DNA from: Phorcus lineatus
Taxonomy: Eukaryota; Mollusca; Gastropoda; Trochida; Trochidae
Length of the DNA: 64,000 nucleotides
NCBI GenBank assembly: GCA_921293015.1
Contig: OV121086.1
Location: forward strand, 28,072,254 to 28,136,253
Reading direction: 5' to 3'
Position 1 is the first letter of the stretch; every line of letters starts with the position of its first letter. The position numbers and the translations under genes were made by a program. Under the pieces are notes generated by a model. The model had not been told where the DNA came from, made no database searches, and was given only the letters and a program-made list of their open reading frames with translations. Of this stretch, positions 609 through 42,100 are shown piece by piece.

Positions 609-804
609 TTAAACAATAACTCCAGTGACGGGTGTCTGCAGAAGAACGATATGCCGGTGCTGGTATCTGACCCCGTTGGCAAGGTGATGGTCCACCAGTT
701 CTTTCAGGGTAAATGCTTCTTTCTGATCCTTATACAGGAAGTACTTCATCCCGGCGTGGCTTCTCCGTTTCTTGATCAGGAACGTCATTAATGATCCACA
801 ATAC
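609..804 (-). CDS. CARD-SH2 gene, exon 7: end of SH2 and stop
   Basis: Joins in phase 2 and encodes YCGSLMTFLIKKRRSHAGMK and on through LYKDQKEAFTLKELVDHH and ANGVRYQHRHIVLLQTPV, ending in TAA at 609-611. The pattern matches SH2 strands C-F and helix B. The segment after the helix is close in layout to the N-terminal SH2 of PI3-kinase p85. The usual beta-D histidine is Tyr here. Confidence 0.85.
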
Positions 805-3800
805 CTGGCGAACAAATATAAGAATAAGACATATTTACGTTCGTGAAACAGAATTAACCAGATAAAAAGGTATACATTGTAGCTGGGTTATAGTCACGTT
901 AATGCAAACACGAGTTTAATATTTTGTTAAATGAACGCCATCATTACTTAATAGCCATTGAATTACATAGCACAAGGTAACCAAAGACTAGTAAGGCCAT
1001 ATGTATTTCCTTAAGTCCTTTATACCACATGGTCCCTTAACTGACGATATTCAACTTCCTTTCAAGATAGGGATAAGGTACAATTTATCAAACTTACACA
1101 TCCTTCTCACAAATATTTACAAAATTTATATCTGAATTAGATACAAAACAATAAAGTGATATCATACAGAAATGATAGAGAGAAATCTACAGGGTGATTA
1201 AAAAATATACACACTGCAGTGGGAAGAAACGCTTACTGTATAGATACATATTGCTAAACGTCTTTGTGGCTGACATGCTTTTGCGTATATGATAATTTCT
1301 TTCTGCCACTTAAAGTGACACAGAGTATGTTTTTAATTGTTTATGTCCCTTAAATAAGAACCAATTTACTGTCCTCAATTAAGTTCAAATCGCCTATATC
1401 TCCTAAATTCCAAAATTGTCCTATTTTTATGTTTTCAATGATAAATGAAAAATGGCCATATAAATGTTAGGAAGTCGAAATTCTACGTACATTTTACATG
1501 TGAGTCAAAAGTCCTTATTATTATTACAAATCCATATTTGTATTTGTGTCTGCTGTAAATAAGTTTCAAAAATTATGTTTGAGTCATTAACTATTTTAGT
1601 CTTATTTCTCGCCTTAACATAAGAGAAAACGTGGTTTTTGACCTTTTCATCAATAATGATATATGATTTAACGGAAATTGAATATAGTTTTGGTGAGATT
1701 ACTTTTTCGAAAAAATCGTTACTTATTCTATAGATGCATAATGAATTGATAAGAAAGAGAAAGATTTCAAATGTTTGGAAATGAAAACTTACATGACGGT
1801 AATTGCCGGTTTTCTTAATCCTTTGAAATACCAGATGAGATAAGTTCCATCCTTTTTATTCTTTATTGCCATTTCAACCTTTCACAAAAATGAAATGAAA
1901 TTGTTGAAAAAAGAAGACGTCCCTGGTGTTGCCAGTGACAGCGTTAAAATTGTGATACCACACAGACATATCCATGAAATTATTAAAAAGAAGATTGTAA
2001 ATCTTTAAATCTACTATATCAATTTCGTTTTAATTCATTATACAGCTGCTGAACAAACGTTTGTTACAATGTTCATAATTTCTTTTAAATTTCTTATTTT
2101 GAAATTGTCATCAGTTCTGTACAGTGCGTACTATTGACAGACCATACTTTTGTATCAGTATGTATATGGTATGTCAGAGACATTTCTGGCATGGCAAAAA
2201 AATTGGCAAAGGGTAAAATTCTTGAAAAAAGATTTATTCTATTCCTGCAATAAAATATAAATTAAACACTTTTCCGTCAAAATTTCGAAAAAATAGTTAA
2301 CAATTGTTTATGTAATGATCCAATAGGTTATTAACGAAAACTATTTTGAATTAAAAAATTGACCAGAAATCTCAAAGAAAATTAATATTGCAATTTTGAC
2401 CCCGGTGTCTCACAAAGGCTATTCATATTGTGTTTCAGTGGAATATGAATATAATATTTCAATATGTGATAGGAACATATCTCCTCGAGTAAAATCCCCA
2501 TAACTTTTGGCAGAAAGATGATTGAATAAGCTGAACATAAATAAACACCTATTTAAATTGAAATTTTATAATTTGAATTTTGAAACATGAAAGTTTGCAA
2601 GTAACATAAAGGAATATCGTTCAGCTGCTGTATTAAAAGAACAACCAGCAACAAAATTCGAATAACAAAGCAGTTGATGTTGATACTGATAGTTTTCTTT
2701 CACTCCTTCTTGCCGCATTTTCACATCTTTGAAACACGAACAATATGAATAAATAAATAATAACAATAGTATAAATGGCATATGGTATAATATGGCATAA
2801 TATGGCCCAAAACTTTGTTTGTAACCCTGTTAAACACACCTCATCCTCGGATATTCCAGGATGATATCCCGGCATTGAACCAAGCTCGTTGTCCACAGAG
2901 GACTGCATGAAGTCTATCTCTGGGTCGAATTCTCCTTGTCGATCAATGACCTCCTTTCATTCAAAGAAACATGATACCATATTGTTATAATGAAACAAAA
3001 CCATATGCATGTTTTATGGAAACTCTTTACTGCATTCCTGTTGACCCTACAATAGAAATTTGGTTACGTTTGTTAGGAGTTTTCGTGTTTTACAACTTAT
3101 TTTGTGTTCATGCACACCTTTTAACACCAGGTGTTTTTTCTGCTATCATTTTCTTATATCTTTGTCTGATATTGTCTATGGTTATCAAGAATCCCTTTTA
3201 TTTTATATAATACTTTTCTTTGTACTTCATGATCTTTTAATATCAAAATACTAAATGTTTCAGCTGCTGAAGAAAATCCTGTTCAGCTTTTTAAGGGTTC
3301 TCTCTTAAAATCAACATTTTATGTTAATCTTTTTTTCGTCCTTAATGATCTTTTGACATTAATATATCAATTTTTTCAGCTGCTGAACAAAAAACTGTTC
3401 AGCTTTATAAGGGTTCCCACTTAAAAATAATTTTTGTTTTGGATATTTTGAATTAATTCAGCAATTCTTTTGAAACATACTTCAGTGTCAAAACTTTTGG
3501 CTCAATTGAATATGTCAAGATACAAGGGTCAGATACCAACATACAATTCTTGCATTCCCAGAAAGAGACATTGAGTGAACAGTACATAACTTAGATTTCT
3601 TATTTCTACAAAAATATATTAATTGAACACATTTTCAGGAAGTTTTGGTGTTAAAATCAATACTGGTTCATTCCATGACAATTTTTATACACAAATAATT
3701 TTAAATGACGAACACCAAGAGATTTGAGCTTTTTCTGCACTGCCAAATTATTCGTGAAGCAGTATGAGTTTTTTTTTTATTACTTCATTCATTAAGAATA

Positions 3801-6800
3801 TACATATTTAAACATATATATCAATGTAGAAACATGAGATTTCAGCATAGTAGTAGACAAACAATGGACAGAGTATCTTTCAATTTTAAAAACAGAACTA
3901 TTCCAGGATCGAAATTATAATTTGTGGATGTACATGATAAATGTTTTTCAAAATGATGACATGTTGCATAATCGCTAAAAGAGAGAACAAATTGTGTCAT
4001 TATGACCGGTATTTTATACATTTTGAATAACTACATTGAATATATGCATAATTTTTGTCTATGTTATATATCTTGCCAATGATGCTTGCTAATTCATTTT
4101 TTTGTTTTGCTTTAAATATATTATAGTTGATGATTATCAATATCAGAAAAGAAATTCTATTTTCTTGGTATCCGAAGATAAAAGTTTGTTTTGATACTAA
4201 AAGATTATAATGAAACAAAAAACATGCATTTTTAATCGCTTTTATAGCCCACATGTGTCAATAAAGTATTTGTAGTTAGGATTTTGTGTATCAAACGGTT
4301 TTGGAGGGGTTTGGGGGTTGGTGTATTATCTTCCATTTATCTTCTGAGAGAGTACAAGATAAATCGTTTCCCCACTTTATTTTGTGTGATTTATGTTTTC
4401 AAGTTGCAATATATCGTAAAAGTATAGTATATAGTATATAATAGTATATTATTTAGGATGCTGATATCTGATCCCGAATTTGATGGTGATATTCGAATTG
4501 CCAACTTAAATTTAGAGAACGTTTTGAGGTAACAGAGGATCCGAAGGCAGCAGAGGGAATGACCTTTCACAGTTACTAGAAACCCTGGGAGACTATTTCA
4601 AGTCTATGATCACATATAAAATGATTGAAAACCCAGCGATGCAAACGAACCTGTAATCTTTATGGAAAGAGAAAAAGAATATCATGGTCATCTGTCCAAA
4701 GATAGTACAGGAAATCATCACTTCATGGTCGGAATCGACCAGTTGGATTACCTGACATTCTTGTAAAAACCACGAATGAAATCAAGAAGATGGTACAGGT
4801 TCAATGCTCATTACATTGGTTAATGCCTTGCTTCAATATCGTAGACACTGCAAACTGCTTGGTGTCGCCAATCACTAGCTACAGTTTCTTTGCAAAAATA
4901 AGCTCTTTGATACCCTGACTTCGACTGACGATACCAGGGGAAGAGGTTATATAGCTATGTACAGTTCTGCAGCTATCCACTCACATTAAACGCACTAGTG
5001 CACACCAATATTTCTTTAACACAACGAATGCACAGATACTGCATATTTCTCGATATTATTCAAGAACCTCACTCAAATAATCTACCTCGTAAGTTATTTA
5101 ACGAATATTTACGTATTCAGGTAGTAAGGTTGATTTTTAAAGACCGGAAGTATTTAATGTTACGTTACAATAAATCCGCATGAACTACGATATCGGAAAT
5201 ATTAAGATTTTGCTTATAACCAAAAAAGCGGAAACGGCAGCCGCTTTGGTCAATCTAATAGCAATGCTAAAGCTGTGTTATTTAGTCGGTTTATTTACAA
5301 CATTGCTTTCATAAAACATAATCCATTATTTGTTCTCAGTTCAGAGTTTAGGTAAATTAAACAGCTGCACATAATAAGTGTTCAGCCGCTTTCAAATGTC
5401 TTTAATTTATCCGTTTTGTGCACAGCTAACCTTAGATTTGTTATATGTCCCAGCCGACAGCGGCTCTGTAATTTTTTTCATTGTTGATTGCAGGTCAATT
5501 GTAAAGAATTTTAAGTATTTCATTGCATCGATAGAAAGCTTAAGTGATTGCATAAGTCCTCTTAAACCTTAAAATAGCCAATTTAAACCGTAAAAGCGTG
5601 CACTAGTGCCTTTAAGTTATGTAACATTCAAGGACGCATAGCTGGCAGTTTGGTATCCAAGGAACAAACCTTTGGCCGTCCTCTGGCTACTGACTCCAGT
5701 CCGCCAACATCAAGCATGTTGAGTGAGTAAGTGAGTGAGTTGGGGTTTAACGTGCTTTGAACAATATTTCAGTTACTAAACACGAGGATGACAAGCATCC
5801 AAAAGAGAGAGGACAGACCAGGAAGAAAGGGATCGACAGGGCGAGGGAAAAGACGGAAAGAAAGGCATAGTGAGAGATAGACAACAGGTTTTAGAAGGAC
5901 TCAAATTCAGTCTGGCGTCTACCCGTCGACCTGTCCAGCTTGGGTGTCCCTACCCGGGGCATGTAAGCTCCAGCTGGCATAGCTCTTGGGGTCTCTGAAG
6001 CATGTAGACCACCACACCACGATAAGGTATTGAGTTCAGTGGTGGTCAAGCATGTTGAGACGTGGTCTCCTAACCTCAAATGTTTGTTAGGATCAAGTCT
6101 CCCATCTTCCAGAGTCTACGACGGTGCAAGAAGAGGAACTGCACATATCTTACATTTCTTATGTGTTCAAAAAACAAGGCATATTTATGACTCGTCAAAG
6201 AGAGGAACTTATTTGTTCTGTTCCATCTATGCAAATAGACTGCCAGTGGGTGATCCAGGAGTACTTTCTCAAGAGAGAAGGAACCTCTGTGTGATAAATA
6301 ACTACTTTCATTCAGTCAGACAAAGTCTAGATGCTTCTGTTGACTGTTTAGGATTACTTGTTCATCACATTATTTATCGTTCATATTCTTTCTAAAACAT
6401 TAATGATCTTTTCTTCATATTGCTCAGGGTTTCTGGAATGAAAACGTCCATGTTCATGCTGTAAAGAATGCTAAAGCATCAAATCAAAATATTTCTTTAC
6501 TATTTTGTTGTTGTATCAAATAGGTGTTGCACAGTCCACATACGTTTCACCGGTGATACATAGTCTACAACCACTACAAAAACCCAGAGTATCACACGTG
6601 GAACAAATAAAATATCATAAACAAATAAACAAACATTAAAAATAGACACATCTGTGTTATAGTTAAAACGTAAGTGTATGAATTTCAAGTGGTTATACTT
6701 CTTGGACTGTTAGAAGTAGTGTTGGTTACTAGAGGGTTAAAACGGTTAAATCATTTAGGACAAATTTCAAAGTAGATGCGTCAAATGTAAATACCTTTGT

Positions 6801-9800
6801 CTTCTTGACTGTCTGTTTGGTTGATTGATTTGTTTTCTCTTTAGGCGCTGAGGAGGCTTTACTTTTCAATTTTGGTTTATCTCTCTTGTCTTTTTCTGCA
6901 TACAATCTACCTGAGTATTTATATTTACTTGTTGCTCCTGTCTCACGGGCCTGGACAATCGGGCGAGGCTTGAAAATGAAGTTGTCTTTGAAGTTTAATC
7001 CAAATTGGCGAGGTGTCTTCTCTTGCTCGACGGAGACGATCTCTGTTTGGATTTCCTTCGTCTGAAATAAGGTTATTCGTGAGTGATTAATATTGTTTAT
7101 CTATATTTGTTTGTCAGATCCAAATTCTTTAGAACAGTTGGCCTCCTCAAAGGACAGGCACATTTGACTCCTCGACGGCAAAAAAAATCGAAAACACAGC
7201 CATCTGCCTTTGGTTAAAGTATATTACAGTACTTATAATGTATCATCCAGTATTTTCAAAGAATTGAGCATTGATTCTTTTGGTCCAAGAAAGGGAACCT
7301 AGAGGAAATATATTTCTAAATTCCATACAGAATTTGCAAGTGAGAACGAGAAAATAAAAAAAAGTTGTAAGTGATATCGCAATTATATATTTTTTCAGTT
7401 GCACATTTTAATTACTATTCTATTTTCGTAAAGAAGAAATAATTATGTTGCCATCAACTAACACTTACCGCTTTCGTTTTGAGACAAATCTTAGGAGTGA
7501 TAGCATCATCGTAAAACTCTTCATCGTAAAGACGTGCATATCCTTCTCTATCTTCGTGGACATCGGAACGTTTCACAGTGTTATATCCATCCGGAGGAGC
7601 CTGTGGTGGTGATTGCTCATCACAGTTCATGACTTGTCCTGGTCGGGCCTCATCTGCCAAGGTGTCGAAATCAACCAATTGTGGGGGGTCTACACCAACA
7701 GAAAATCCATCATATGCTACCGGGCTCAAATAGTCATAAGAACTCTCTTCGTTTCTATCAGATTCTGTTCTGGCATTTTGCTTATTGGAAAATGCTTCTG
7801 ATTTTGAATTTTGTTCTCTTCCGCATGCAGAATCACGACAAGAATGACGACTGGCAAAAGGGCCGTCGGCCACGTCTTGTGGTTCCCGGTGTATGCTTTC
7901 ATAGTCACTTGTGCTTTCGTCTTGGCTTTCTAGAAGATGAGCTGCAATGAGATATTGGACGGACAACATATCATAAATTTTTAAACGCCTTTTCAACTTC
8001 AGCTAAAATACTCTAAGAACTTTGCTTTCAAGATAGCCTTCCTGTCATAAAATGGGTCAACATTTGAATGCTTTTATTTGAAATTCCATGTTATACTTTG
8101 CCTGATTTAAATCATCAATGAATGAAATCCAGTCATATTTCACTACCAACGTGCATGTTTGATATGATTGACAAAACATGCAATATCAAATGCAGGATGA
8201 TGACATTGCTGTGAATGTTGTTCGATAGTCATCTTATAAATGTACTGTCAAAGTATAGCATTCTCATATTTCCTTAAATATTATACATTGATTTGAATTA
8301 CGTCACAAAGCATGTTTTTATATCAATCATGAATTATGTATTCCTGTTCCAATGCTATGATACTAATCGTCATAACTCATTGAATGAAAAGTTTACCGAC
8401 GGAACGTTGTTTTGAATAGATTCAAAGTAATTTAAAATTTCTTTTCACATATAAAGATTGAGTGACATATTTCAATTTCTTTTAATGATTACTCCATATC
8501 ACTATCACAACAATGAATGCTCCCAAGGAATTGAGCTACTTCCGGTGATATGGCGTGACATGACGCAAAGAAACGTGGTTCATATTAATTTTCTATTTTG
8601 TTGCCTGCATTCAGCTCTGGAAGACGCACTCTTCAGGTGGCTTTTATTCAGTGATATGTTGATCTTGGTCATATATGTATTCAGTGTAAGAAGTGGCTGA
8701 AAATTTTGAAAGTTTGATGTTTTTTCATGATTTGGATTTTGCGTTTGACGAGTCTATTCTATTTTGTACGGGTATTTTAAATTTTAGGCTAATTGATGTA
8801 TCAATTGAAGAATATCACAATAGTTTGAGTGTTCCATTACGTTTCCTTTGAATTATTGTTCCTGTTTTATTTAATTCTAAAAGTAGACAACTTTTCTGCT
8901 GAATTATGCTAAATTTAGTGTCAGAAAACAAATACAGTGCAAGTTTCGGTGACAATTCTTTCATCGATTTTAAACATGGAAATATCAAGACCTGTAGAAT
9001 TAGTTTGACATTTTAAGAAATATATTGATGTCATCACAAGTCATTTGTTTTCAGTAACGTTTGTTATGGATATAACGGTGAAATGTTTAACTTAATTATT
9101 CATTACCTTTTGCCTTTTCAAACTCCTCAGCCAAAAATGCTAAGTCAATCCTTTTGTCTCTCAATGCCGTTAAAAGACCACTGAACCAATTTGGTTTCTG
9201 TGCCAGACAGTCCAGAAGAAAAACATTCGCCTTAAAGCGTCCTTTTTTGGCTTTTAGTTCCTCCTGGAATAATATCATGGGGGAAATAACACAAGCGAGA
9301 AATTGCTTTTTTATTATAACATCACAATATGTTTTACATAATGGGTAAAATTTCCCTTGATAATAAAGTTAATATTCCCAAAATCATAATGAGCCTAAGG
9401 CAATTAGCTAAATTATCGTCCAAGGTAGCCTTGGTACCATATTAAGGGATTATTAAGGGGTTAATAACCGAACCATAGCGATACAAATAATTTGCACCGA
9501 TTCGAATAAAGATAAACATGACAACCAGATAAACTTTTATAATGGTGATGGCACTTAAATCGAAAACATACAATAATTGCAACAAGAAAAGTAGACTATC
9601 AATTCAATTAACATATCTATACAATTCTAAAATGCCTTTCGAAATAGTTTTCCATTGCTAGCTAACGAACAATTAAGAGGGACAGTAGCACGTTTTTTGA
9701 CAAATTTCTTTCCTCAAAATTTCCCGAATAATCATTAGTTTATGCTAAATGTATTACCTTTGGAGGGTTACATCATCTCATTAATCAACCCGACCATCCG

Positions 9801-10181
9801 TAATCGTAAAGTAAATGATTAATTATGATCAAGCAAAAATCACTTCCGGTATAGAAATGGATTCTTAAAGCTTAACTTATCATGGTAAGTTTTAAACTGT
9901 TGATTTAATTTATTTTGTTTTAATTCCAAAACTTTCTGACAATTGGGAACATTTATTTTTGTTACCTTGAGATTACTTTCTGTAACTATAAAGAACGCGC
10001 TATTACCCTTTAATTTGATTCTCACCTCTTGGTTTGTATTAAGAAATATCCCTTGACTGCAGAGGACATCGTACAACGACTGAGGGTAAACATTATCACA
10101 GAACAATTTGGAAATTCTTGCCTTCAGGACGTGATAGAAGCGATGTTCGCCAATTAGTGGTGGTGTACCTCTTCCCGCCAT
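609..10181 (-). CDS. CARD - tyrosine-motif - SH2 adaptor protein (7 exons, 482 aa)
   Basis: Seven minus-strand exons join with consistent phases (0,1,0,0,0,2): 10181-10026, 9263-9107, 7941-7469, 7061-6795, 2953-2840, 1878-1793, 804-609. Each has an AG acceptor and GT donor, and the sum is 1449 nt, exactly 483 codons with a TAA stop. Residues 1-104 form a CARD whose second half (LLDCLAQKPNWFSGLLTALR) resembles MDA5 CARD2 and the MAVS CARD. Residues 105-351 are polar and tyrosine-rich, then basic. Residues about 379-476 form an SH2 domain (DGTYLIW at the FLVR strand, LKELVDHH in the last helix). No enzyme domain is seen, so an intracellular signalling adaptor is inferred, perhaps coupling CARD filaments (innate RNA-sensing type) to tyrosine-kinase pathways. 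I do not recall a described protein with this domain order. A related CARD lies upstream at 23.1-24.3 kb. ATG 10181 is chosen because the paralogue starts at the same place. Confidence 0.82.
805..2839. other. Introns 5 and 6 of CARD-SH2 gene (with exon 6 inside)
   Basis: AT-rich intron sequence outside exon 6. A short block near 1546-1610 ('ctgtaaataagtttcaaaaatta') belongs to the dispersed family seen at 430 and 51340. No further exon or RNA gene is seen. Confidence 0.5.
1793..1878 (-). CDS. CARD-SH2 gene, exon 6: SH2 helix A and FLVR strand
   Basis: Encodes VEMAIKNKKDGTYLIWYFKG and onward to ITV. In typical SH2 domains the strand reads DGTFLVRDS; here it reads DGTYLIWYF, so the invariant phosphate-binding arginine is tryptophan (W405). 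Acceptor GAAAG, donor GTAAGTTT, phase 2. Confidence 0.8.
2840..2953 (-). CDS. CARD-SH2 gene, exon 5: start of SH2
   Basis: Encodes an acidic lead (EVIDRQGEFDPEIDF) and then GYHPGISEDE, which aligns with the SH2 opening W-Y-H-G-x-I-S-R-E-E. The alpha-A arginine is replaced by Glu387. Two acceptor AGs lie 3 nt apart (exon start 2953 or 2950); both keep the frame, so a one-residue NAG variant is possible. Donor GTGTGT, phase 0. Confidence 0.75.
3255..3430. repeat. Two-copy direct repeat in intron 4
   Basis: A block beginning 'ttcagctgctgaa' and containing 'ttaagggttc' occurs near 3260-3308 and 3378-3426, about 117 bases apart. A partial copy is at 2043. No coding content is seen. Confidence 0.6.
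5724..6045 (+). mobile_element. SINE-like insertion with 14-bp target duplication
   Basis: The element starts 'tgagtaagtgagtgagttgg' and is flanked by exact 14-base direct repeats 'tcaagcatgttgag' at 5710-5723 and 6046-6059, the mark of LINE-mediated insertion. An inverted partial copy is at about 15150-15450. No open frame of note. It lies in intron 4 of the CARD-SH2 gene. Confidence 0.75.
6795..7061 (-). CDS. CARD-SH2 gene, exon 4: basic linker
   Basis: An 89-codon exon with no start codon of its own, open throughout between a TTTCAG acceptor and a GTATTT donor, phase 0 at both ends. It begins TKEIQTEIVSVEQEKTPRQF and becomes lysine-rich toward the end (KPKLKSKASSAPKEK). No domain is recognised. 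The basic tail could be a flexible linker, a localisation signal or a membrane/nucleic-acid contact; none of these is shown by the sequence. Confidence 0.75.
7469..7941 (-). CDS. CARD-SH2 gene, exon 3: tyrosine-motif linker
   Basis: Encodes about residues 105-262, polar and probably disordered. Tyrosines in acidic or signalling-like context: Y118 (YESI), Y173/Y175 (EESSYDYLSP, containing a YxxP), Y181 (YDGF), Y224 (YNTV), Y239 (YARL), Y243 (YDEE), Y248 (YDDA). Y224 and Y239 make a YxxV-11-YxxL pair with near-ITAM spacing. A short proline stretch (QSPPQAPPDG) lies before Y224. It resembles the linker of SLP-76/BLNK-type adaptors in composition, not in alignable sequence. Donor GTAAGTG, phase 0. 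Confidence 0.82.
7942..9106. other. Intron 2 of CARD-SH2 gene
   Basis: AT-rich, no exon or repeat recognised. Confidence 0.45.
9107..9263 (-). CDS. CARD-SH2 gene, exon 2: second half of CARD
   Basis: Follows a TTCCAG acceptor and ends before GTAATG in phase 1. It encodes helices 4-6 of the CARD. The motif K/RP-N-W-F-S/G-x-L-x-x-ALR is the most recognisable stretch and corresponds to KENWFSAFLNVLR in human MDA5 CARD2 and RPGWVEYFIAALR in MAVS (from memory). The exon closes with AFLAEEFEKAK, again CARD-like. Confidence 0.85.
9677..9760 (+). mobile_element. End of a TTAA-flanked MITE (GGGACAGTAGCACG family)
   Basis: TTAA at 9673-9676 is followed by 'gagggacagtagcacgtt', the terminal repeat also found at 20945, 28109 and 50419. 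The opposite end is not seen, so this is a truncated copy in intron 1. Confidence 0.55.
10026..10181 (-). CDS. CARD-SH2 gene, exon 1: first half of CARD
   Basis: Encodes 52 residues from MAGRGTPPLIGEHRFYHVL and ends in NTNQE at a GTGAG donor, phase 0. It aligns with the start of the second CARD in the window (FYDVL at the same offset), and both donors fall at the same point in the fold. The frame is open upstream to a TTGCAG acceptor at 10242-10245, so the transcript probably has an upstream exon and the first 20 open codons may be 5' UTR. A second possible acceptor, CTTCTAG, ends at 10223 and would join in phase 1. Confidence 0.82.
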
Positions 10182-10379: not shown

Positions 10380-11490
10380 ATTGGTCTTCATATAAGTTCA
10401 TTTCCAACCGGTTTCACAACATAGTGATCATCAGGGTAACTTATACATTGTGTTGCTAATGATATAGCGTTAACAATGGCAAGGGACGCAATTCATGACG
10501 TCACATGCATACCACTAAAAATATATATAATATATGCGACGTCAACATGATTTCATATTAGCTACAGTTCAATTTAGGGGTATATCCATCACTAAAGAAT
10601 CATTCTTATATTTTCCTCAGCTCTTCATTATCTGTGCGCATTTTGTATATAGGACAGATTGTGAACTGGGGATTATAATTCTTTGCGCAGTCATCTATAT
10701 GTGCGCTAAGGTGTATTAACATCTATAGTTTGGTGTTTTAATCTGTTGTTTAGCACTCGGACTCTCGCCCTTAATGTATCCCCCCTTTGACCAATATACT
10801 CTTCGCAACAACCAGCGCATGTTATTACATATATTAGATTATTCTTAAAGGTGAATGAATTTACCTCCAAAATGTGTGTACATGTGCCGCAATTCGGCCT
10901 ATTGCATTTTGTGATACTTCCATTTAATTCAGGTTTTTGATCTTTAAAGCCCGCTTTTGATAACAGTTGTTTCAGGTTTTTGCTCTGCCGTTTACTGTTT
11001 CCCATGTGGTATGTTTTAGAGCGTGCTTTAGTTTTAGACACGAGATTAGCGCCTGTATACATAGTTTTTCACATTTGGATAGATATTTGGATTACAGGGG
11101 TTAAATGTTGTAACAATAGGTAAGGCTTCCGAATTGTTTTCCTGTTGTCTTTGTTTTAGAAGATATTCTCGGTTTAAGGAACCTTTTCTTTAATCTTTTC
11201 CAACTTTTTAAAAATTCGTTTTCGATTTCGTTCTCCAAACTTTTGGCCAACCTTACGGTATAATAGCTCTTCTAGGTATCCTTGTATAAGTGTGGCCTAA
11301 GTTGGCGCCATTTTCGTTCCCATGGCTGTCCCCTTTATTTGTTTGTAATAGTTTTCATTAAAATGAAAATTATTATTTGTAACGATAAATTTCACACTTT
11401 CTGTAATGAAATCTTTTGAAATCCTCTCAGGTAATTCATGGGAGTGTTTATCCAACCAATAAGGAATTGCTTCTATACCTAAGTCATGAG
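10380..11490 (-). mobile_element. Penelope-like retroelement fragment (RT and GIY-YIG ends)
   Basis: Read on the minus strand, 11480-11330 encodes a reverse-transcriptase piece with YKQIKGTAMGTKMAPT, typical of Penelope-like elements. Further on, 11062-10706 encodes CNRPNCGTC followed by YVITCAGCCEEYIGQ and TLRAR, the cysteine-rich lead and GIY-YIG endonuclease of this family. The element is old and broken. A second, inverted fragment adjoins it, and its outer end (10380-10510) recurs inverted at 14350-14500. Confidence 0.8.
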
Positions 11491-11995
11491 GCAGCCTTGC
11501 CTATTGTTACCACATTAAACCCCTGTAATACAAATATCTATCCAAATGTGAAAAACTATGTACAGGCGTACACGCTCTAAACGATACTAAAATTATAGAC
11601 AGCAAACGCCAGAGCAAAAACCTGAAACAACTGCTTTAAAGATCAAAAACCTGAATTAGGTGGAAGTATCACAAAATGCAATAGGCCAAAGTGCGGCACA
11701 TGTACACACATTTTGCGAAGAGTATATTAGTCAAACGGGGGATACATTAATGGCGAGAATCCGAGTGCATAAACAACAGATTAAAACACCAAACCATAGA
11801 TGTACATACCCCTTAGCGCACATATAGATGAATGCGCAAAGAATTGCAATCCCAAGTTCATATCCTATATACAAAATGCGCACAGATAATGAAGAGCTGA
11901 GGAAAATAAAAGAACGATTCGTTATTTTTGATGGATATACCCCTAATTTGTACTGTATATAATATGAAATCATGTTGACGTCGCATTTACTATAT
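11490..11995 (+). mobile_element. Inverted Penelope-like fragment, head to head with the previous one
   Basis: From 'ttgttaccacattaaacccc' to 'catgttgacgtcgcat' this is a shorter relative of 11130-10530 read in the other direction, so the two copies form a large imperfect palindrome. Cysteine and GIY-YIG-region traces (TSITKCNRPKCGTC) remain. It is a decayed fossil. Inverted partner copies are usual for Penelope-type elements. Confidence 0.7.
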
Positions 11996-18571: not shown

Positions 18572-18769
18572 ATGGAAAGCATCATCAACCATAAGTAATA
18601 TTATATTAAGCTGTAATATTTCCCTTCCATTTCACTCTTTTTTTATCTTTCTTTTAAACAAAATCCGGTATACGACTCTGCTTCAACCATTCATCAAGGT
18701 AATCTCTATCATTATTTTGAACGCTCTCTTATTGTTTGACGTACAGTACATTACGATTATAATCCTTAC

Positions 18770-20155
18770 TTTATAATCCATTGTCATCTCCTCTTAAATC
18801 ATTGTAAAGATTGTCTTTGTTCAATATAATCCTCATATTCTAATCCATTGTCATCTCTTTTTATATCATTGTAAATGTTGTCTTTGTTCAATATAATCCT
18901 CATATTATAATCCATTGTCATCTCCTCTTAAATCATTGTAAAGATTGTCTTTGTTCAATATAATCCTCATATCATAATCCATTGTCATGTCCTTTTATAT
19001 AATTGTAAAGGTTGTCTTTGTTCAATATAATCCTCATATTATAATCCATTGCCATGTCCTTTTATATCATTGTAAAGGTTGTCTTTGTTCAATATAATCC
19101 TCATATTATAATCCATTGCCATGTCCTTTTATATCATTGTGAAGGTTGTCTTTGTACAATATAATCCTCACATTCTAATCCATTGTCATCTCCTCTATAT
19201 AATTGTAAAGGTTGTCTTTGTTCAATATAATCCTCATATTATAATCCATTGTCATCTCCTTTTATATAATTGTAAAGGTTGTCTTTGTTCAATATAATCC
19301 TCATATTATAATCCATTGCCATGTCCTTTTATATCATTGTGAAGGTTGTCTTTGTACAATATAATCCTCACATTCTAATCCATTGTCATCTCCTCTATAT
19401 AATTGTAAAGGTTGTCTTTGTTCAATATAATCCTCATATTATAATCCATTGCCATGTCCTTTTATATCATTGTGAAGGTTGTCTTTGTACAATATAATCC
19501 TCATATTATAATCCATTGCCATGTCCTTTTATATCATTGTGAAGGTTGTCTTTGTACAATATAATCCTCACATTCTAATCCATTGTCATCTCCTCTATAT
19601 AATTGTAAAGGTTGTCTTGATCAATATAATCCTCATATTATAATCCATTGTCATCTCTTTTTATATCATTGTAAATGTTGTCTTTGTACAATATAATCCT
19701 CATATTATAATCAATTGTCTCCTTTTATATCATTGTAAATATTGTCTTTGTACAATATAATCCTCACATTCTAATCCATTGTCATCTCCTCTATATAATT
19801 GTAAAGGTTGTCTTGATCAATATAATCCTCATATTATAATCCATTGTCATCTCTTTTTATATCATTGTAAATGTTGTCTTTGTACAATATAATCCTCATA
19901 TTATAATCAATTGTCTCCTTTTATATCATTGTAAATATTGTCTTTGTACAATATAATCCTCATATCATCATCCATTGCCATGTCCTTTTATATCATTGTA
20001 AATATTGTCTTTGTACAATGTAATCCTCATATCATAATCCATTGCCATGTCCTTTTATATCATTGTAAATGTTGTCTTTGTACAATATAATCCTCATATC
20101 ATCATCCATTGCCATGTCATTTTATATCATTGTAAATGTTGTCTTTGTACAATAC
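18770..20155. repeat. Minisatellite, ~67-bp unit, about 20 copies
   Basis: The unit reads roughly 'ccattgtcatctccttttat' then 'atcattgtaaaggttgtctt' then 'tgttcaatataatcctcata'. Units vary by substitutions and small deletions. Higher-order blocks recur, for example the multi-unit stretch near 19600-19760 is repeated at 19780-19930. No unique spacers, so it is not a CRISPR-like array. Confidence 0.92.
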
Positions 20156-23136: not shown

Positions 23137-23302
23137 CTCTTTCAATTTCAAAATTTTCAGCTAGGAAGTCGAGCCCACTGCCAGGATTCCTGAGCGCCCT
23201 GATGAGATACTTGAACCAATTCCTCTTGTTGGCCAGACAGTCGAGGAGAAACTCACAGGCTCTCCATCTTCCACTGGACGACTCTACTGCTTTGAGATTG
23301 TC
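23137..23302 (-). CDS. Second CARD, exon 2
   Basis: Follows a TTTCAG acceptor. Encodes DNLKAVESSSGRWRACEF and the W-F-K-Y-L-I-R-AL helix, ending LDFLAENFEIER plus one base (phase 1). It is two residues longer in the last loop than the downstream copy. Confidence 0.75.
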
Positions 23303-24314
23303 CTGAAATGATACATAGTTGGGAAGGATTTGTCCAAATTTGATAAACAACTTAAACTTATGAGATTGTCCTTCAAATAAATTGAAATTGACAAAGCTTG
23401 TCCTAATGTGACATACAACTTCAAATGGTTTATCCCTGAACTTGCCATAGCGTGTTCAAAAATGCTGTACAACTTGGTGAGCTTTTCCTGTGATGATAAA
23501 CAATTTTATTGAACTTTTTCTACAATGATTAACAACTTGGTGAGCTTATGCTAGAGTTATAATCAACTTTGAAGAGCTTGTCCTTAAACGTTAAATAAAT
23601 TGGAAGAGCTTGTCCTAGAATGATATTCAACTTGTCAGAGTTTGCCCTAGAAGAAGCTATACAATTTAGCGGATACATATTCTGTATTACTCTCTCATAA
23701 AAAGGTTTTACACATAACACTTGTGTTCTAATTATAAGAAGCTTTTGCAGTTTGCAAACAACATGTAGGTAGTGCATTTTCGTGTTACGTATGTCATATG
23801 ATAAGTGGAGTTGTGGATTTGTCTAAAACTGATGGGTCGGATCTTTTCAGGCGATGGATTTCTGATTCTTATGGTGTGGTGAGGTGAGGTGAGATGGGAT
23901 TTAACGCCGCTTTCAAGATTATTTTATCATGCCGCGGCTGCTAGTATTATTGCAGAAAAAAGCCCGCAACACCATTGTGTATATCTATTGCTGTGAAACC
24001 TGCAAGCATCGGCTGGAAATAGCGATCAATGGGTGTTACTGCAATGAAATTCAGTGTAGCATTGCACCCAAACCTTACTGCGTGGATGTTCACTTTCAGG
24101 TTAAAAGGAGGACCATGTATATTTAGTACGTCAAAAGACAGGTGTGTGTTCTCACCTGTTCTTCTTCAGTCAACAGTACCCGTCTATTATTGAGCAGTGT
24201 GTTCAGGTGTATTGGGTCAACATGGCGACAAAACGATTCGGCAATGTTCTGCTGTAGAACATCATAAAACGGCTGGCCGCCTATGAAGATAGGGATCTCT
24301 GGTGCCATCGCCAT
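23137..24314 (-). CDS. Second CARD module (two exons), MDA5/MAVS type
   Basis: Exons 24314-24156 (53 codons, starting MAMAPEIPIFIGGQPFYDVL) and 23302-23137 join in phase 0. The second ends in phase 1 at GTATG. Together they give a 108-residue CARD with FLLDCLANKRNWFKYLIRAL, the counterpart of LLDCLAQKPNWFSGLLTALR in the downstream gene. Intron position and both phases are identical to the first CARD, so the two are duplicates. No further exon is recognised before 10.2 kb. The phase-1 end could splice to exon 3 of the CARD-SH2 gene (7941, phase 1), giving an alternative N-terminus. It could instead splice to the CTTCTAG acceptor at 10223, giving tandem CARDs. Or the module may be a partial gene. 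Confidence 0.72.
23303..23650. repeat. Degenerate tandem array next to second-CARD exon 2
   Basis: Units of about 33-40 bases of the type 'gagcttgtcctaaaatgata' plus 'tacaacttgg' run upstream of the exon. The exon's own acceptor (TCATTTCAGGACAATCTC on the minus strand) is one of the units, so the array repeats the intron/exon border. Confidence 0.65.
23878..24046. mobile_element. SINE-type repeat (taacgcc core)
   Basis: 'gtgaggtgagatgggattta' plus 'acgccgctttcaaga' and 'gctagtattattgcag' match copies at 35072 and 63689. It lies inside the intron between the two exons of the second CARD. Confidence 0.7.
24156..24314 (-). CDS. Second CARD, exon 1
   Basis: Encodes helices 1-3 and ends LLTEEEQ before GTGAGAAC. 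The open frame continues upstream of the ATG through RDPQWSLLRNELTK to an acceptor-like TTTTAGGACAAG at 24372-24380, so an additional upstream exon may exist. MAMA is taken as the start by analogy with the downstream copy. Confidence 0.72.
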
Positions 24315-31700: not shown

Positions 31701-32906
31701 ATGGATGTGGTGTACGATCGTTGTAGCCAGGAGGCATCAGAAATGGCAGTTAACTCTTCAAATATTCATGACATTTGTGTTGGAGTGTTAAAAATTGCAA
31801 ACAGAATCAGGCGGTACTACCCTAGTATCATGGACCAAGAGAAACGGGGACCTGTTGATCTCGCCGTTCCATTGATGGGTTATGCTACTCCTGTCGTCAA
31901 CATCTTTACCTTTATATTGAACACAATCATAGTTATCGTTCTTACTCGACGAAGGTCAAGGTCGCCAACAAATTTGATTCTCGTGTCGATTGCAATCTGT
32001 GATACAGTTACCAGTCTATGTCCGTTACCGCTTTACATCTATACATACACTTACAGCGGATACCAGACATACCCAAGCATGGTGTGGTGTGTCATGAACG
32101 TCTATATCGCTACCTTCATTCCAAAAGTTTTCCACACTATTTCACTATGGCTGACGGCGCTGCTGGCTTTCAACCGCCATTGCGGAGTGTCTCAAATAAA
32201 GTGCCAGACGTGGACGTGTGGCTATAAGGGCGTGACAGTTACAATGACCATCATTATAATACTTTCGATTCTGTGTCACAGCTTCGAGTTGTTCACCGTC
32301 CTCAAACCAATAACAGTCATAGACAAAAAGCCGTTTACATCAGAGGGACTCAATCTTGTGCATACCTGTTACCAGGAGACTGTCGCCATTCCCAATGTAC
32401 AATACTTCAGTTACATCTACACCTGGGTCAGACTGACTTTTGCCCAGGTCCTGCCCTGCCTCGTCATGGCGGTTTGCAATCTGCTAATTTGCAAGGTCAC
32501 TTACAGGAGCTATCGCTTCAGACGGACTCTCATCAGGGGTCATCGCATGTCCGAGATGGCCGAAACACGCCGGACAATACGTATCTCAGTGATGCTTTTG
32601 CTTATCACGTCAGTGACGTGTGTGTTGGAACTCATTGTGGACATTCTGTTGATTCTCAACTTCGTGCAGTATTACTCGCAGAGACTTATTGTTGATAGTG
32701 ATATAATGGGTCGACTTCTCTTAGTCAGCAATTTTCTTATTTTTCTTTCATTTCCAATGAATTTCTTTCTCATCTTAGTTCTAAGTCACACCTTCCGGCA
32801 GAACCTTGCCTCGTGCTTGCAATATCGACGAAAGAGGAGGATATCTCCACTCACTGGTAGTAACAATGAGAACAATGTCCACCTTGTATCAATAACGGCT
32901 TCATAA
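31701..32906 (+). CDS. Rhodopsin-class neuropeptide GPCR (SPR/myosuppressin-receptor-like)
   Basis: A single 401-codon frame from ATG 31701 to TAA. Seven hydrophobic segments start at about residues 54, 91, 131, 177, 238, 293 and 338. TM1 motif PLMGYATPVVNIFTFILNTI and RRRSRSPTNLILVSIAICDT after it are typical of the sex-peptide-receptor / myosuppressin (DMSR) group. D101 is the TM2 aspartate. C130 and C223 can form the conserved disulfide. N18 is a likely glycosylation site. The usual DRY is NRH (158-160), and the TM7 NPxxY is replaced by FPMNFFLIL (351-359), as in several peptide receptors of this group. The third loop and tail are basic. It acts at the plasma membrane; the ligand cannot be told from the sequence, but an FMRFamide- or myoinhibitory-like peptide is the family expectation. 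Intronless in its coding part. Confidence 0.85.
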   Translation: MDVVYDRCSQEASEMAVNSSNIHDICVGVLKIANRIRRYYPSIMDQEKRGPVDLAVPLMGYATPVVNIFTFILNTIIVIVLTRRRSRSPTNLILVSIAICDTVTSLCPLPLYIYTYTYSGYQTYPSMVWCVMNVYIATFIPKVFHTISLWLTALLAFNRHCGVSQIKCQTWTCGYKGVTVTMTIIIILSILCHSFELFTVLKPITVIDKKPFTSEGLNLVHTCYQETVAIPNVQYFSYIYTWVRLTFAQVLPCLVMAVCNLLICKVTYRSYRFRRTLIRGHRMSEMAETRRTIRISVMLLLITSVTCVLELIVDILLILNFVQYYSQRLIVDSDIMGRLLLVSNFLIFLSFPMNFFLILVLSHTFRQNLASCLQYRRKRRISPLTGSNNENNVHLVSITAS

Positions 32907-37679: not shown

Positions 37680-39100
37680 CTATAAAGCATTTAAAATTAA
37701 AACGGTTCCTAGTGACAAGATAGTATGCAGGACTGCTGTTGATGCCTTTACAGCACCAGAAACCACAGATTTCGTTGTTTCCGCTATTGGTAATTGAGTC
37801 GTTGATGAAATTGGTTGCGTCGATGAGGTTGACGAAGTGAATGAACAAAGGGCAACATCCTCCTGGGTCACAATACTACAGAATGTCCCTTCCCATCCAG
37901 ACAAGCATTGACATAGGTTAGGACCAACGCAATTACCATGGGAACTACAGTTCCACACTCCAGAACAATCGAATTCCGAGCAGTCTGCACCAGTGAAGCC
38001 AAGCTTACACCAACAGCTTCCTGGGGCGACGCATCTTCCCATGTTGGCACAACCAGCATCCCCTGAACATGTGAAGTCCAGGTTGGTTAATACCGGAGAT
38101 AAAGAAACACTGAGAGAGGAGTTTGATTTATCTACCAATCGGGAAGAAGCCATGACTTCATTTTGTCCATCCCACCAGTTGTTTGACGCATTCAGAGTTA
38201 CCTCCCATGGGGCAAGAACTCTCAGGTCGAAAGGTGACGCTGGATTTTCAAAAATGTTGTACGAAAATGAACCATCAGTAAATTCAAGTAGTACTACAGC
38301 ATCGCTTGTGTTCGATTTCCTAATGCTATTGTAATCAAATTTCACCTTGTTAGTTGAAAAGGTTTTTACTTTTACAACACATTTTGCAGATATGTTTTCG
38401 AATCGGTTTGCTGACACGCTCAGGGTCTCGAATTCAGGTAACTCCATTGACACGAAACATTCATCTGTGACACCAGCATGAGCAACGTTGTCTTCAAAGA
38501 ACAGCGAAAAGGGGGATTCGAACAAGAACGAGATCTCACCACTTGAAGTAAAGTTGTTGCTTTGAACATGAAGCTCTCTCAGAAAGGGAAAATATGCTTG
38601 GCCAAACAGTCGCACATCCATGCTCCTCTTAATACCCTCAAAATGATTGTTTATGATATTTATCCATCCTTCGCTGTCATGGACAGACATATCCATTACC
38701 AGACCGATGTCCATACCACGGAAAACGTTATTATTGATGATCAGAAATCTGTTACCTGATGTGAATCCTGCCACCTTGAGACCAACAAGATTTTCCGTAA
38801 ATAACATTCCTTCAATATTACCCTTAATAAGAAAAGTTCTAACAGTCATTCCATTCCCTCTATTAAACCTCATAATGGCATTTCGGATGTTGAAATATTT
38901 TTCAACCTTTACAAAAATACCATCAGACTGTCCATGTTCAATCAATGTCCCTTTAAGATCTATATCAATGTAGTCTTCTTCCAGTGTTACCCCAGCTTCC
39001 ATCGTGTTGTTGATGTAGCAGTTTGATAACTTCACTGTTTGGGTGCTTATGACAAGACCCACCTTGGAGTCTAGGATAGAAACTCCTTCGAGATAGGACT
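37680..39100 (-). CDS. bark: bark-like exon 18: beta-helix D, two EGF-like modules, GPI-like tail
   Basis: A 473-codon last exon. The helix block closes with ASNNWWDGQNEV. Next comes CSGDAGCANMGRCVAPGSCW with CKLGFTGADC, then CSGVWNCSSHGNCVGPNLCQ with CLSGWEGTFC, which are two EGF-like modules. A Ser/Thr-rich stretch follows, then VVSGAVKASTAVLHTILSLG and a few apolar residues to the stop. A small-residue site (SGA) followed by a short hydrophobic end with no cytoplasmic tail resembles a GPI signal. Drosophila Bark is instead a transmembrane protein. Confidence 0.85.
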
Positions 39101-42100
39101 CTGAAATGATATTCAATTGAAAAACTCGTAAGAATTAAAATAAGATGCCACTGTAATGCAAAAAGGCATGATTGACTTCAATTAAAGGTAACAATCATAA
39201 TTTCCTATTTCATATCAGAAAAAAACATTAATGTTGAAAACATTGCACGTTTTTCTTTTTTCCTAAAATCACTCCATGTACGAATCCAATAGGAAATAAA
39301 GGCGGTGATAAAATATGCCAATGACTCGAAAGATCAGTCTTCACGTGATTTATCATGTAAGGTTTACGATTTATGACATTTGGAATTAAATGTTTCTAGC
39401 TATGCAATGAATTATCTGAACATGCGTTCCAAATCTGCTGCTCGTGCAGAAAGATAACAGCATTCTAATGCGTATCGTTTTCAGAAGAATTTAAACGTAT
39501 CCCTTTAATTTGTATAATGTGACTGACAATTCAAACAATGTTGAAAAGGCCTTTAAAACACGAGATGGCCTCAATAAAGACTAATTTATAAAAAGTCTGC
39601 AATGAGCAAATATCACTTTCAACCCATGACATTCACTAAAGTTATAATCACAAAGCAAGTCACTATATACCTTTATGATCTGACGTCACTGCGATGTTGT
39701 GATGACAGCTGACTCTGACGTCATCGCACATGGAGGTGTTGCTAGCTACAGTAGGTTGACACTGAGACAGTGCCCACATTGAACTCTTACATCCCAGATC
39801 CTCCACCATAGACGCGTTCCTGATATCTTCACTGCCGTTCCCAATCTCGGCTATGCCAGACCTATCAAAATTCTTATATTTTAAGAGAAAGTAACTGAGA
39901 GTCATGCATCATAACAAATTCTAGGCGTAATGACGTTTCCCGGTTAGTTTTGAACAGGAAAGTAAGGGATTATTCCCATTCATTCGATATGGAACTGATC
40001 ATTGGTATAATCATGATCCGTATGCTTAGGTATTGAAGATTGGGACAAACCCTTACTTTGTGTTCAGTAATTAATTACGCTCTAAATACAAGTATTAAGA
40101 ACTCTACATTACCATTCATAGAGAATACTAAACGATGTCCAGTTTATTAAAAAAATTATTAAACGAGTGAGTGGTTTGGTAATGGACGAGCAAAAGACTT
40201 GCCCTCATCGCCATCAAAATGATGACGCCATGATGACGAGTTACCCCTCTAACTACCTGCTAACATTCAGCCTGTGAAATTGCCGTTTACATTCGATACC
40301 TACACTCAGCCTTGAGACTCTATGATAATGAAAACAAAGCTAAAATCTATATTATAAGTTTTTAATTCCATTAATTTCGAAATCATTATCATCTTATTTA
40401 AATTAAAATCAAGATCTTAGACAATTTTCTTTTATTTATTGGCTGTCTAACAATATTTTAAAATACAAATAAGATTTACGTCGAAATCTTAAGTCACAAT
40501 ATACGCACGCGGAGCGGGAAGACTTGGACATCTTTTCGTTTCGGTCATGACGTTAAGAAAATAAGACATATGATGCCACCGCTTAAATTAAAATCCAGAA
40601 GACCACATGGTCAGCTTTAAATCTTGCCAATATGTGTAGTAATGGTAGCAATGGTAGTAAGCCGAAAGTCACCTTACGGATTTGTGCAAGGGCACCCATT
40701 TTATAGAAACAATGGAGGGCCATTAATTGGCTAATACTATCATATATTTCACCAAGAGAGAAGTCCTGAGATATTTGTAGAGGACACTGGTGTAGTGATT
40801 AGCATGCTGACCTATCACGCCAATGGCCCGGGTTCGAATCCTGGTGGAGGCATCAGATATTTGTAACATGGGCCATTTCGTATGCTGTGTCCCTGGGCAA
40901 GACACTTGATCCACACTGCACTCAGTCTAACCAGCTGTACAATTGGGTGCCTGAATTACGGGAAGGTATGGACCTACACGGTCGCGCGAAGCGCTTAATA
41001 GGCTGCATCGAAGTACTATTCCCTCAGGATCATAACATAACGTGCGCTTTGAGCATGCTCTGTCTTGGATAAATGCGCGGTACAAGAAAGCTATTACTAT
41101 TATTAAATTAATTTAAAAACATCTAGGAAAACTTACTACAAAAGTCATCATTTCAATAGTTGAAGAACAACTTACTCGTATCCCATAGCTCGACAGATCA
41201 ACTTTTCATCCGGGTAAAGAACTTGACAGACTCGAGTCCACGTTCCGTTGATACACATTTCTACTCGCCCTCCCTGACGTTCGTTGTGATCGACTAGTCG
41301 AACTGTACCTATATTCACGTCTGTAATAAGAACAACATTGACTAAGGATATCTGTATAGTAATAATACACCAAAATATCTAGAATTACCTTATGAAAAAA
41401 AGCAAGGGATGATTTCAAAAGACCTTTCGGAATGTCTTGTCAATGTAACATTGCTAGATAATTGTTATCACACCATCAGCAAAATTCTCGTACTTTTTCT
41501 GTTCGAGTCCCATGCGGGATTTGAACAAACACCATCAAAGTTAACCTGCTCGTCAATTCGCCTCACGTTAAATGTAAACATCGGTCCATTTTATGAATTT
41601 TTAATCGAAATTATATCGACTTATTAGCAAATAACAAACGTATCCTACCAAGCATTGAGGGGAAAACAACCCCAAACCACGGATAGTCGTCTGCCCTTTT
41701 GAAGACAATCTTCTCTGGACTCTCAGCTTGTGCTACAAGCGTGCCTGTAAATGAAGTGGTTATAGAGATTAGAGCAAGAATGAATGCTTTATATAAAAGT
41801 AAACCTCATTGTGTTGCAATTGCTAATGCTTTCACCCTGGAGTATTTTTTTCATATCCGTTACATTTAGATAAATATCCCACACTACTAAACCATAATCC
41901 CTAAACTCAACTCAGCAATGAAATGAACGAGGGCTCTGATTCGTTCTGTGAACAAGGGAGTTCTCTTAGTGCTATTACATTCATGATATGAAGGCGTGAT
42001 TACAGGGCGCAGTTTTATTGAAGTCGCTAAATGGAATTTGAAAAAAAATAGAGATAAAGATAGGCCTTTTATAATTAAAAGATACTGTACTTTAGAGAAA

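Follow-up and report, generated by a model that had tools for sequence, protein, structure and literature searches.

Near the start of a 64,000-nucleotide stretch of the genome of the gastropod Phorcus lineatus (assembly GCA_921293015.1, contig OV121086.1, here C11:28072254-28136253; hereafter the window) lies a gene, termed copy A of the CARD-SH2 gene, whose product appears to join an N-terminal CARD to a linker and a C-terminal SH2 domain. It is read on the minus strand from 10181 to 609. An independent rebuild from the sequence matches exactly the seven-exon, 482-residue frame proposed in an earlier note on this DNA, and the phase compatibility claimed there also holds, with entry phases of 0, 0, 1, 0, 0, 0, and 2 and all six introns bounded by GT-AG. 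The start codon at 10181 has an A at -3 and a G at +4, with an in-frame stop 69 bases upstream, and the stop codon occupies 611-609. An acceptor-like sequence, GATTGCAG, is located directly 5' of the ATG and is conserved in copy A and in two further copies, B and C, which suggests a 5' untranslated exon upstream of the ATG.

When the 482-residue product was used as a query against the whole genome (958 Mb), 27 matches were found, every one of them within 28.02-28.10 Mb of C11. Outside the window, at distances of 23 and 40 kb on the same chromosome and strand, lie copies B and C, each 79% identical to copy A. In both, six of six introns are GT-AG and keep the phases of copy A, and no internal stop occurs. 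Since two further copies keep the seven exons, the GT-AG sites, and the open frame, the CARD-SH2 gene, as read from these sequences, is one real gene and not a chance join. Exon 5 of copy A is 92% and 95% identical to its counterparts in B and C. Relative to A, the intron-3 donor of B and C is shifted 6 nt later, giving two extra codons at the end of exon 3; inside this exon, B and C contain 54 additional residues. Where the introns can be aligned they are 69-81% identical, and the three copies would therefore be old paralogues rather than alleles. Intron 4 is much shorter in B and C, and therefore its large size in A is a local enlargement.

The ratio of nonsynonymous to synonymous substitution rates (dN/dS) was estimated by the Nei-Gojobori method for the pairs A-B, A-C, and B-C. 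It was 0.32, 0.41, and 0.24 for the CARD and 0.30, 0.26, and 0.27 for the pre-SH2 segment with the SH2 domain, with bootstrap upper limits below 1 for the CARD (maximum 0.97, A-C) and the SH2 (maximum 0.87, SH2 core of A-B). The linker gave 0.71, 0.86, and 0.65, with upper limits above 1 in all three pairs. Therefore, both ends have been retained under constraint within the same three genes. Codon usage was also compared, using one G-protein-coupled receptor (GPCR) frame and four frames of beta-helix/EGF type for training. Exons 3 and 5 of copy A scored above almost every non-coding stretch free of stops; exons 1, 2, 4, 6, and 7 were not distinct from such stretches, 21-42% of which scored as well. 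Each true exon frame scored better than the other two frames, which contain stops. Since this test is weak and its training set narrow, reliance was placed on the comparison of paralogues.

The array also contains divergent CARD exons. Paralogue D, which ends about 13 kb upstream of copy A, has a CARD with 45 of 103 aligned residues (44%) identical to that of A, and its two exons divide the CARD as in A, in the same phases; no convincing exons 3-7 were found for it between 10.2 and 23.1 kb of the window. Paralogue E stands in a similar position before copy B, and a damaged set, F, is also present. Because the D-to-A and E-to-B intervals have many aligned tracts in common, the duplicated unit seems to consist of a CARD-only gene and a CARD-SH2 gene. 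Paralogues D and E may encode proteins with a CARD alone or may supply alternative first CARDs; splicing of CARD-D onto exon 3 of A leaves the frame open, and therefore CARD-D could serve as an alternative first CARD. A tandem CARD pair, made by splicing CARD-D or CARD-E to the acceptor before exon 1, was considered and rejected, as a stop precedes the ATG in both the D-A and the E-B combination. Coordinates are collected in the table.

Table. Features of the CARD-SH2 gene and its paralogues. Positions are those of the window unless prefixed by C11; residues are those of the product of copy A.
Feature	Position	Strand	Remarks
Exon 1	10026..10181	-	residues 1-52, CARD first half; ends in phase 0; conserved in B and C
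Exon 2	9107..9263	-	residues 53-104, CARD second half; ends in phase 1 in A, B, C, and D
Exon 3	7469..7941	-	residues 105-262, acidic linker
Conserved linker block	7493..7588	-	residues 223-254; Tyr 224, 239, 243, 248
Exon 4	6795..7061	-	residues 263-351, basic linker
Intron 4	2954..6794	-	3841 bp in A, 992 bp in B, 750 bp in C
Exon 5	2840..2953	-	residues 352-389, conserved pre-SH2 segment and SH2 start
Exon 6	1793..1878	-	residues 390-417 and two bases; SH2 alphaA to betaC
TGG codon, Trp 405	1831..1833	-	place of the FLVR arginine, by alignments
Exon 7	609..804	-	residues 418-482, stop codon; SH2 from betaD to the C-terminus
Copy B	C11:28049290-28042386	as A	seven exons in order, 538 aa
Copy C	C11:28032328-28024224	as A	seven exons in order, 535 aa
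Paralogue D, exon 1	24156..24314	-	CARD-only; upstream of copy A
Paralogue D, exon 2	23137..23302	-	CARD-only; phases as in the CARD-SH2 gene
Paralogue E, two exons	C11:28059311-28058317		CARD-only; about 9 kb upstream of copy B
CARD set F	C11:28063488 and 28059476		damaged; contains a stop

The earlier note assigned the N-terminal domain to the MDA5/MAVS type of CARD. In Pfam, where the cut-offs are 28.2 bits for CARD_2 and 23.9 for CARD, full-length copy A reached 23.3 and 17.6 and its excised N-terminus 26.2 and 21.1, all below cut-off, and its CARD_2 score ranged from 23.3 to 26.7 bits across scans. CARD_2 was matched by all four CARDs scanned (A, B, C, and D), and the joined CARD of paralogue D scored 39.1 bits, above the cut-off. 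A search of solved structures with the CARD of A alone matched no CARD. When the four CARDs were combined, the resulting profile matched RIG-I (E=3.2e-4) and MDA5 (9e-4), followed, after an unrelated ribosomal protein (0.11), by weaker matches to MAVS (0.2) and BCL10 (0.24); among the matches listed, 19 of 20 were RIG-I, MDA5, MAVS, or BCL10. The four-CARD profile, the CARD_2 match in every copy, and the score of paralogue D together make a RIG-I/MDA5/MAVS-type assignment well supported at the level of sequence. In the genome as a whole, CARD_2 was found at E<=1 in 23 places including five in the C11 array; of the other 18, the 14 that were compared can be aligned with the array CARDs, in a comparison that had no shuffle control. 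Four CARD_2 half-domains at C15:25.42-25.47 Mb, with matches starting at profile positions 28-34, look as if they were interrupted by the same intron as the array CARDs.

The C-terminal SH2 domain of the earlier note was likewise recovered. Against a Pfam cut-off of 21 bits, SH2 was not listed for full-length copy A; the excised C-terminus of A scored 21.3 and 22.1 and full-length copy B 23.9, along model positions 2-77 of 77, and full-length copy C 20.1, just below the cut-off. SH2 was matched in all three excised C-termini (best E 3.6e-6). A hidden Markov model (HMM) built from 39 SH2 fragments of this genome gave 21.0 bits for B, 18.7 for C, and 16.9 for A, compared with a maximum of 7.4 bits in 3000 shuffles. 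The presence of an SH2 fold is thus supported by these profile matches.

That this domain is a normal phosphotyrosine reader is not supported. In alignments, Trp 405 takes the place of the FLVR arginine (betaB5) in all three copies, and the contacts at alphaA2 (E/K/E in A/B/C) and betaD4 (T/K/T) are also lost. Among the other 48 SH2 hits of the genome, 40 cover the FLVR place and all 40 have arginine there (a regular expression recognised 29 of the 39 fragments, with arginine in 29 of 29; the column count gave 39 of 39, plus one more). When the copies were added to the alignment of the 39 fragments at fixed length, betaC-betaD was dropped and a later arginine came to lie under the FLVR column; this was discarded as an artefact, since full alignments place Trp 405 there. 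The alignments predict that the SH2 has lost the classical mode of phosphotyrosine binding. Because the arginine that grips phosphotyrosine is missing, the protein probably does not simply read phosphotyrosine but serves as a scaffold of an unusual kind in immunity.

The linker had been described as tyrosine-rich, which is not supported for the linker as a whole; yet its most conserved part is a block with four invariant tyrosines. Residues 225-254 form the most conserved 30-residue stretch of the linker, 25 of the 30 alignment columns being unchanged across A, B, and C; Y224, Y239, Y243, and Y248 are invariant, the island REGYARLYxEEFYDD is intact in all copies, and the signature of the block is GYNTVKR...EGYARLYDEEFYDD. 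The tyrosine motifs of the linker are YESI, YLSP, YNTV, YARL, YDEE, and YDDA; motif enrichment (nine patterns, uncorrected) is no more than suggestive. The segment EDREGYARL presumably resembles the hemi-immunoreceptor tyrosine-based activation motif (hemITAM) of Dectin-1 and CLEC-2, a likeness noted post hoc. In copy B, a duplicate of the island (YARLYDEETYDNIITPQICLKMK) is present between exons 3 and 4, at C11:28045865-28045797.

On balance, we lean towards reading the locus as a molluscan gene that is functional, has been triplicated in tandem, and encodes a soluble scaffold of the cytosol composed of an N-terminal RIG-I/MDA5/MAVS-type CARD, a flexible linker with a conserved tyrosine cluster, and a C-terminal pseudo-SH2. 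In this scheme, the CARD would be recruited to CARD oligomers of RIG-I-like receptor (RLR) or MAVS type, and recruitment would cluster the linkers. Y224 and the Y239/Y243/Y248 island would then be phosphorylated by kinases of Src or Syk type and bind SH2 proteins, while the pseudo-SH2 may dock a partner through a surface distinct from the classical phosphotyrosine pocket. Kinase signalling would thus enter through the linker and not through the SH2. No membrane anchor was recognised, the best 19-residue hydropathy being 1.14 in A, 0.83 in B, and 1.27 in C, with peaks within the SH2 (A and C) or the CARD (B). No TRAF6-like motif is common to the copies, one being present in B only; a short TRAF2/3-like TNQE occurs inside the CARD of all three.

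Several results weigh against a soluble scaffold of this kind. Tyrosine makes up 11 of 247 linker residues (P=0.11 against a background frequency of 2.9%), and these tyrosines are conserved no better than other linker residues (7/11 vs 136/236, P=0.47), with substitutions by Phe at 118 in copy C and by Asn at 173 in copy B. Against solved structures, a single-sequence search with the SH2 returned only the p85 SH2 at a non-significant E of 0.13, the three-copy profile did little better (best p85, E 0.12, also non-significant), and an unrelated polyketide synthase (E 0.13) ranks beside p85. Outside this genome, no homologue was found at E<=10 with the full length (5685 candidates), the SH2 alone (0 candidates), or the three-copy alignment (7996 scored), in a database that is not a eukaryote library.

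A more specific version of the scaffold, which we regard as possible and on present evidence rather doubtful, is that oligomerisation of the CARD multiplies EGYARL motifs, which are single, acidic, and hemITAM-like, for binding by Syk-type kinases with tandem SH2 domains, while the arginine-less pseudo-SH2 holds a constitutive partner. If true, RNA-sensor CARD filaments and tyrosine-kinase signalling would be linked by one natural chain, in a manner that is the reverse of the idea in the earlier note.

It is also conceivable, at rather low probability, that the protein is a decoy or brake, in which a CARD with neither effector nor anchor caps filaments of RLR or MAVS type and the SH2 is a structural tail. 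The tandem copies and the nearby CARD-only paralogues D and E would fit a family of modulators, and the want of an anchor-like hydrophobic stretch and of a common TRAF6-like motif also speaks for a decoy; however, the pre-SH2 segment and SH2 are constrained as much as the CARD, and therefore the SH2 is more than a tail. A similarly unlikely proposal is that an unusual basic surface may still allow the SH2 to bind a phosphate ligand, either phosphotyrosine or phosphoinositide. Basic residues that do not vary among the three copies (K408, R411, K412, and K429-R432) may lie near the former pocket, and the FLVR arginine is also absent from human TYK2, RIN2, and SH2D5 (PMC7530234, in part). Against this proposal, three classical contacts (the FLVR arginine, alphaA2, and betaD4) have been lost together.

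That two adjacent genes, one with the CARD and one with the SH2, have been joined on paper is very improbable. In its favour, exon 4 runs on to a stop, which is met at codon 22 in A, codon 25 in B, and codon 58 in C, and intron 4 contains AATAAA or ATTAAA eight times in A and four times in B; however, intron 4 of C has neither signal, this intron is short in B and C, the phases are compatible in three copies, and an in-frame stop immediately precedes exon 5 in each of them. An array of pseudogenes, to which the enlarged intron 4 of A and the stop in the additional CARD exon at C11:28063488 might point, is hardly credible against three intact frames with purifying selection on both domains.

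In SLP-76, BLNK, and CLNK, an N-terminal interaction domain is followed by a linker with tyrosines and a C-terminal SH2. The product of the CARD-SH2 gene has the same layout, but the N-terminus is SAM or short in these adaptors and a CARD here, where the FLVR arginine is also lost. Likeness to these adaptors is not shown beyond the layout: Pfam found no SAM, and BLNK aligns less well with the SH2 than p85 and GRB2 do. A separate SH2 at C13:17317521-17317703, with VYNLPIR, similar to VYNIPVR of a BLNK chain, and an intact arginine in YLIR, is perhaps, to judge from these motifs, the SLP-76/BLNK relative of this genome. SH2D5 is a PTB-SH2 protein, and SH2D5, TYK2, and RIN2 are not known to have a CARD. 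According to the part of PMC7530234 used here, the FLVR arginine is replaced in all three human proteins, and in SH2D5 by Trp as in copies A, B, and C.

RIG-I, MDA5, and MAVS share the CARD type (Pfam CARD_2, with RIG-I and MDA5 as the best structure matches and MAVS later); however, the copies described here have an SH2 and no Pfam helicase domain, unlike RIG-I and MDA5, and are without the C-terminal transmembrane stretch of MAVS. In oyster, CgRIG-I and CgMAVS are CARD proteins of the RLR pathway (excerpt of PMC5557890). A death-superfamily domain and an SH2 are combined in one invertebrate protein in the sponge Amphimedon, where some proteins with a death fold and TRADD-N have a C-terminal SH2; TRADD-N follows the death fold there, whereas Pfam lists none here, and the section of PMC8195603 concerned does not name the fold as CARD. 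Engineered DED-SH2/PTB chimeras, designed to redirect tyrosine-kinase signals to apoptosis (cited in a passage of PMC2575513), also place a death fold and an SH2 on one chain, but are artificial and contain DED rather than CARD. In the Dectin-1/Syk/3BP2/CARD9 axis, a CARD protein and an SH2 adaptor work together downstream of a kinase pathway of hemITAM type (PMC11647625, in part); SH2 and CARD are on two proteins there and on one chain here. The searches of open-licence PubMed Central, in the portions of text they returned, yielded no described CARD-SH2 protein, in agreement with the earlier note, and the gene therefore represents, as far as these literature searches go, a new combination of known modules.

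Further features of the window include a minisatellite at 18758-20154 (67-bp units, 21 copies, higher-order 200 bp), a 401-aa open frame at 31701-32906 matching the Srw-type GPCR family (46.7 bits), and, on the minus strand at 37680-56357, frames that match right-handed beta-helix, EGF, and F5/8 type C and, at scores below cut-off, SRCR, which we take to resemble a large protein of bark-beetle type. Fragments resembling retroelements, which include a GIY-YIG-like stretch and look Penelope-like to the eye, lie at 10706-11500; the frame at 10706-11068 has no Pfam match. The invertebrate setting proposed from the sequence alone is borne out, since the genome is that of a mollusc and carries two clusters of hemocyanin units. 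These are 16 units of Pfam Haemocyan_bet_s, a mollusc-specific family, eight each at C12:7.646-7.661 and 16.558-16.572 Mb.

In vertebrates, CARD and tyrosine-kinase signalling meet through the separate proteins Syk, 3BP2, and CARD9 (PMC11647625, in part). If the interpretation is true, a single mollusc protein with both an RLR/MAVS-type CARD and an SH2 fold, retained by selection in three tandem copies, would provide a much shorter route between the two, and would parallel in nature the engineered death-fold/SH2 chimeras. The retention of the SH2 in three paralogues without the phosphotyrosine arginine raises the question of other roles for this fold.

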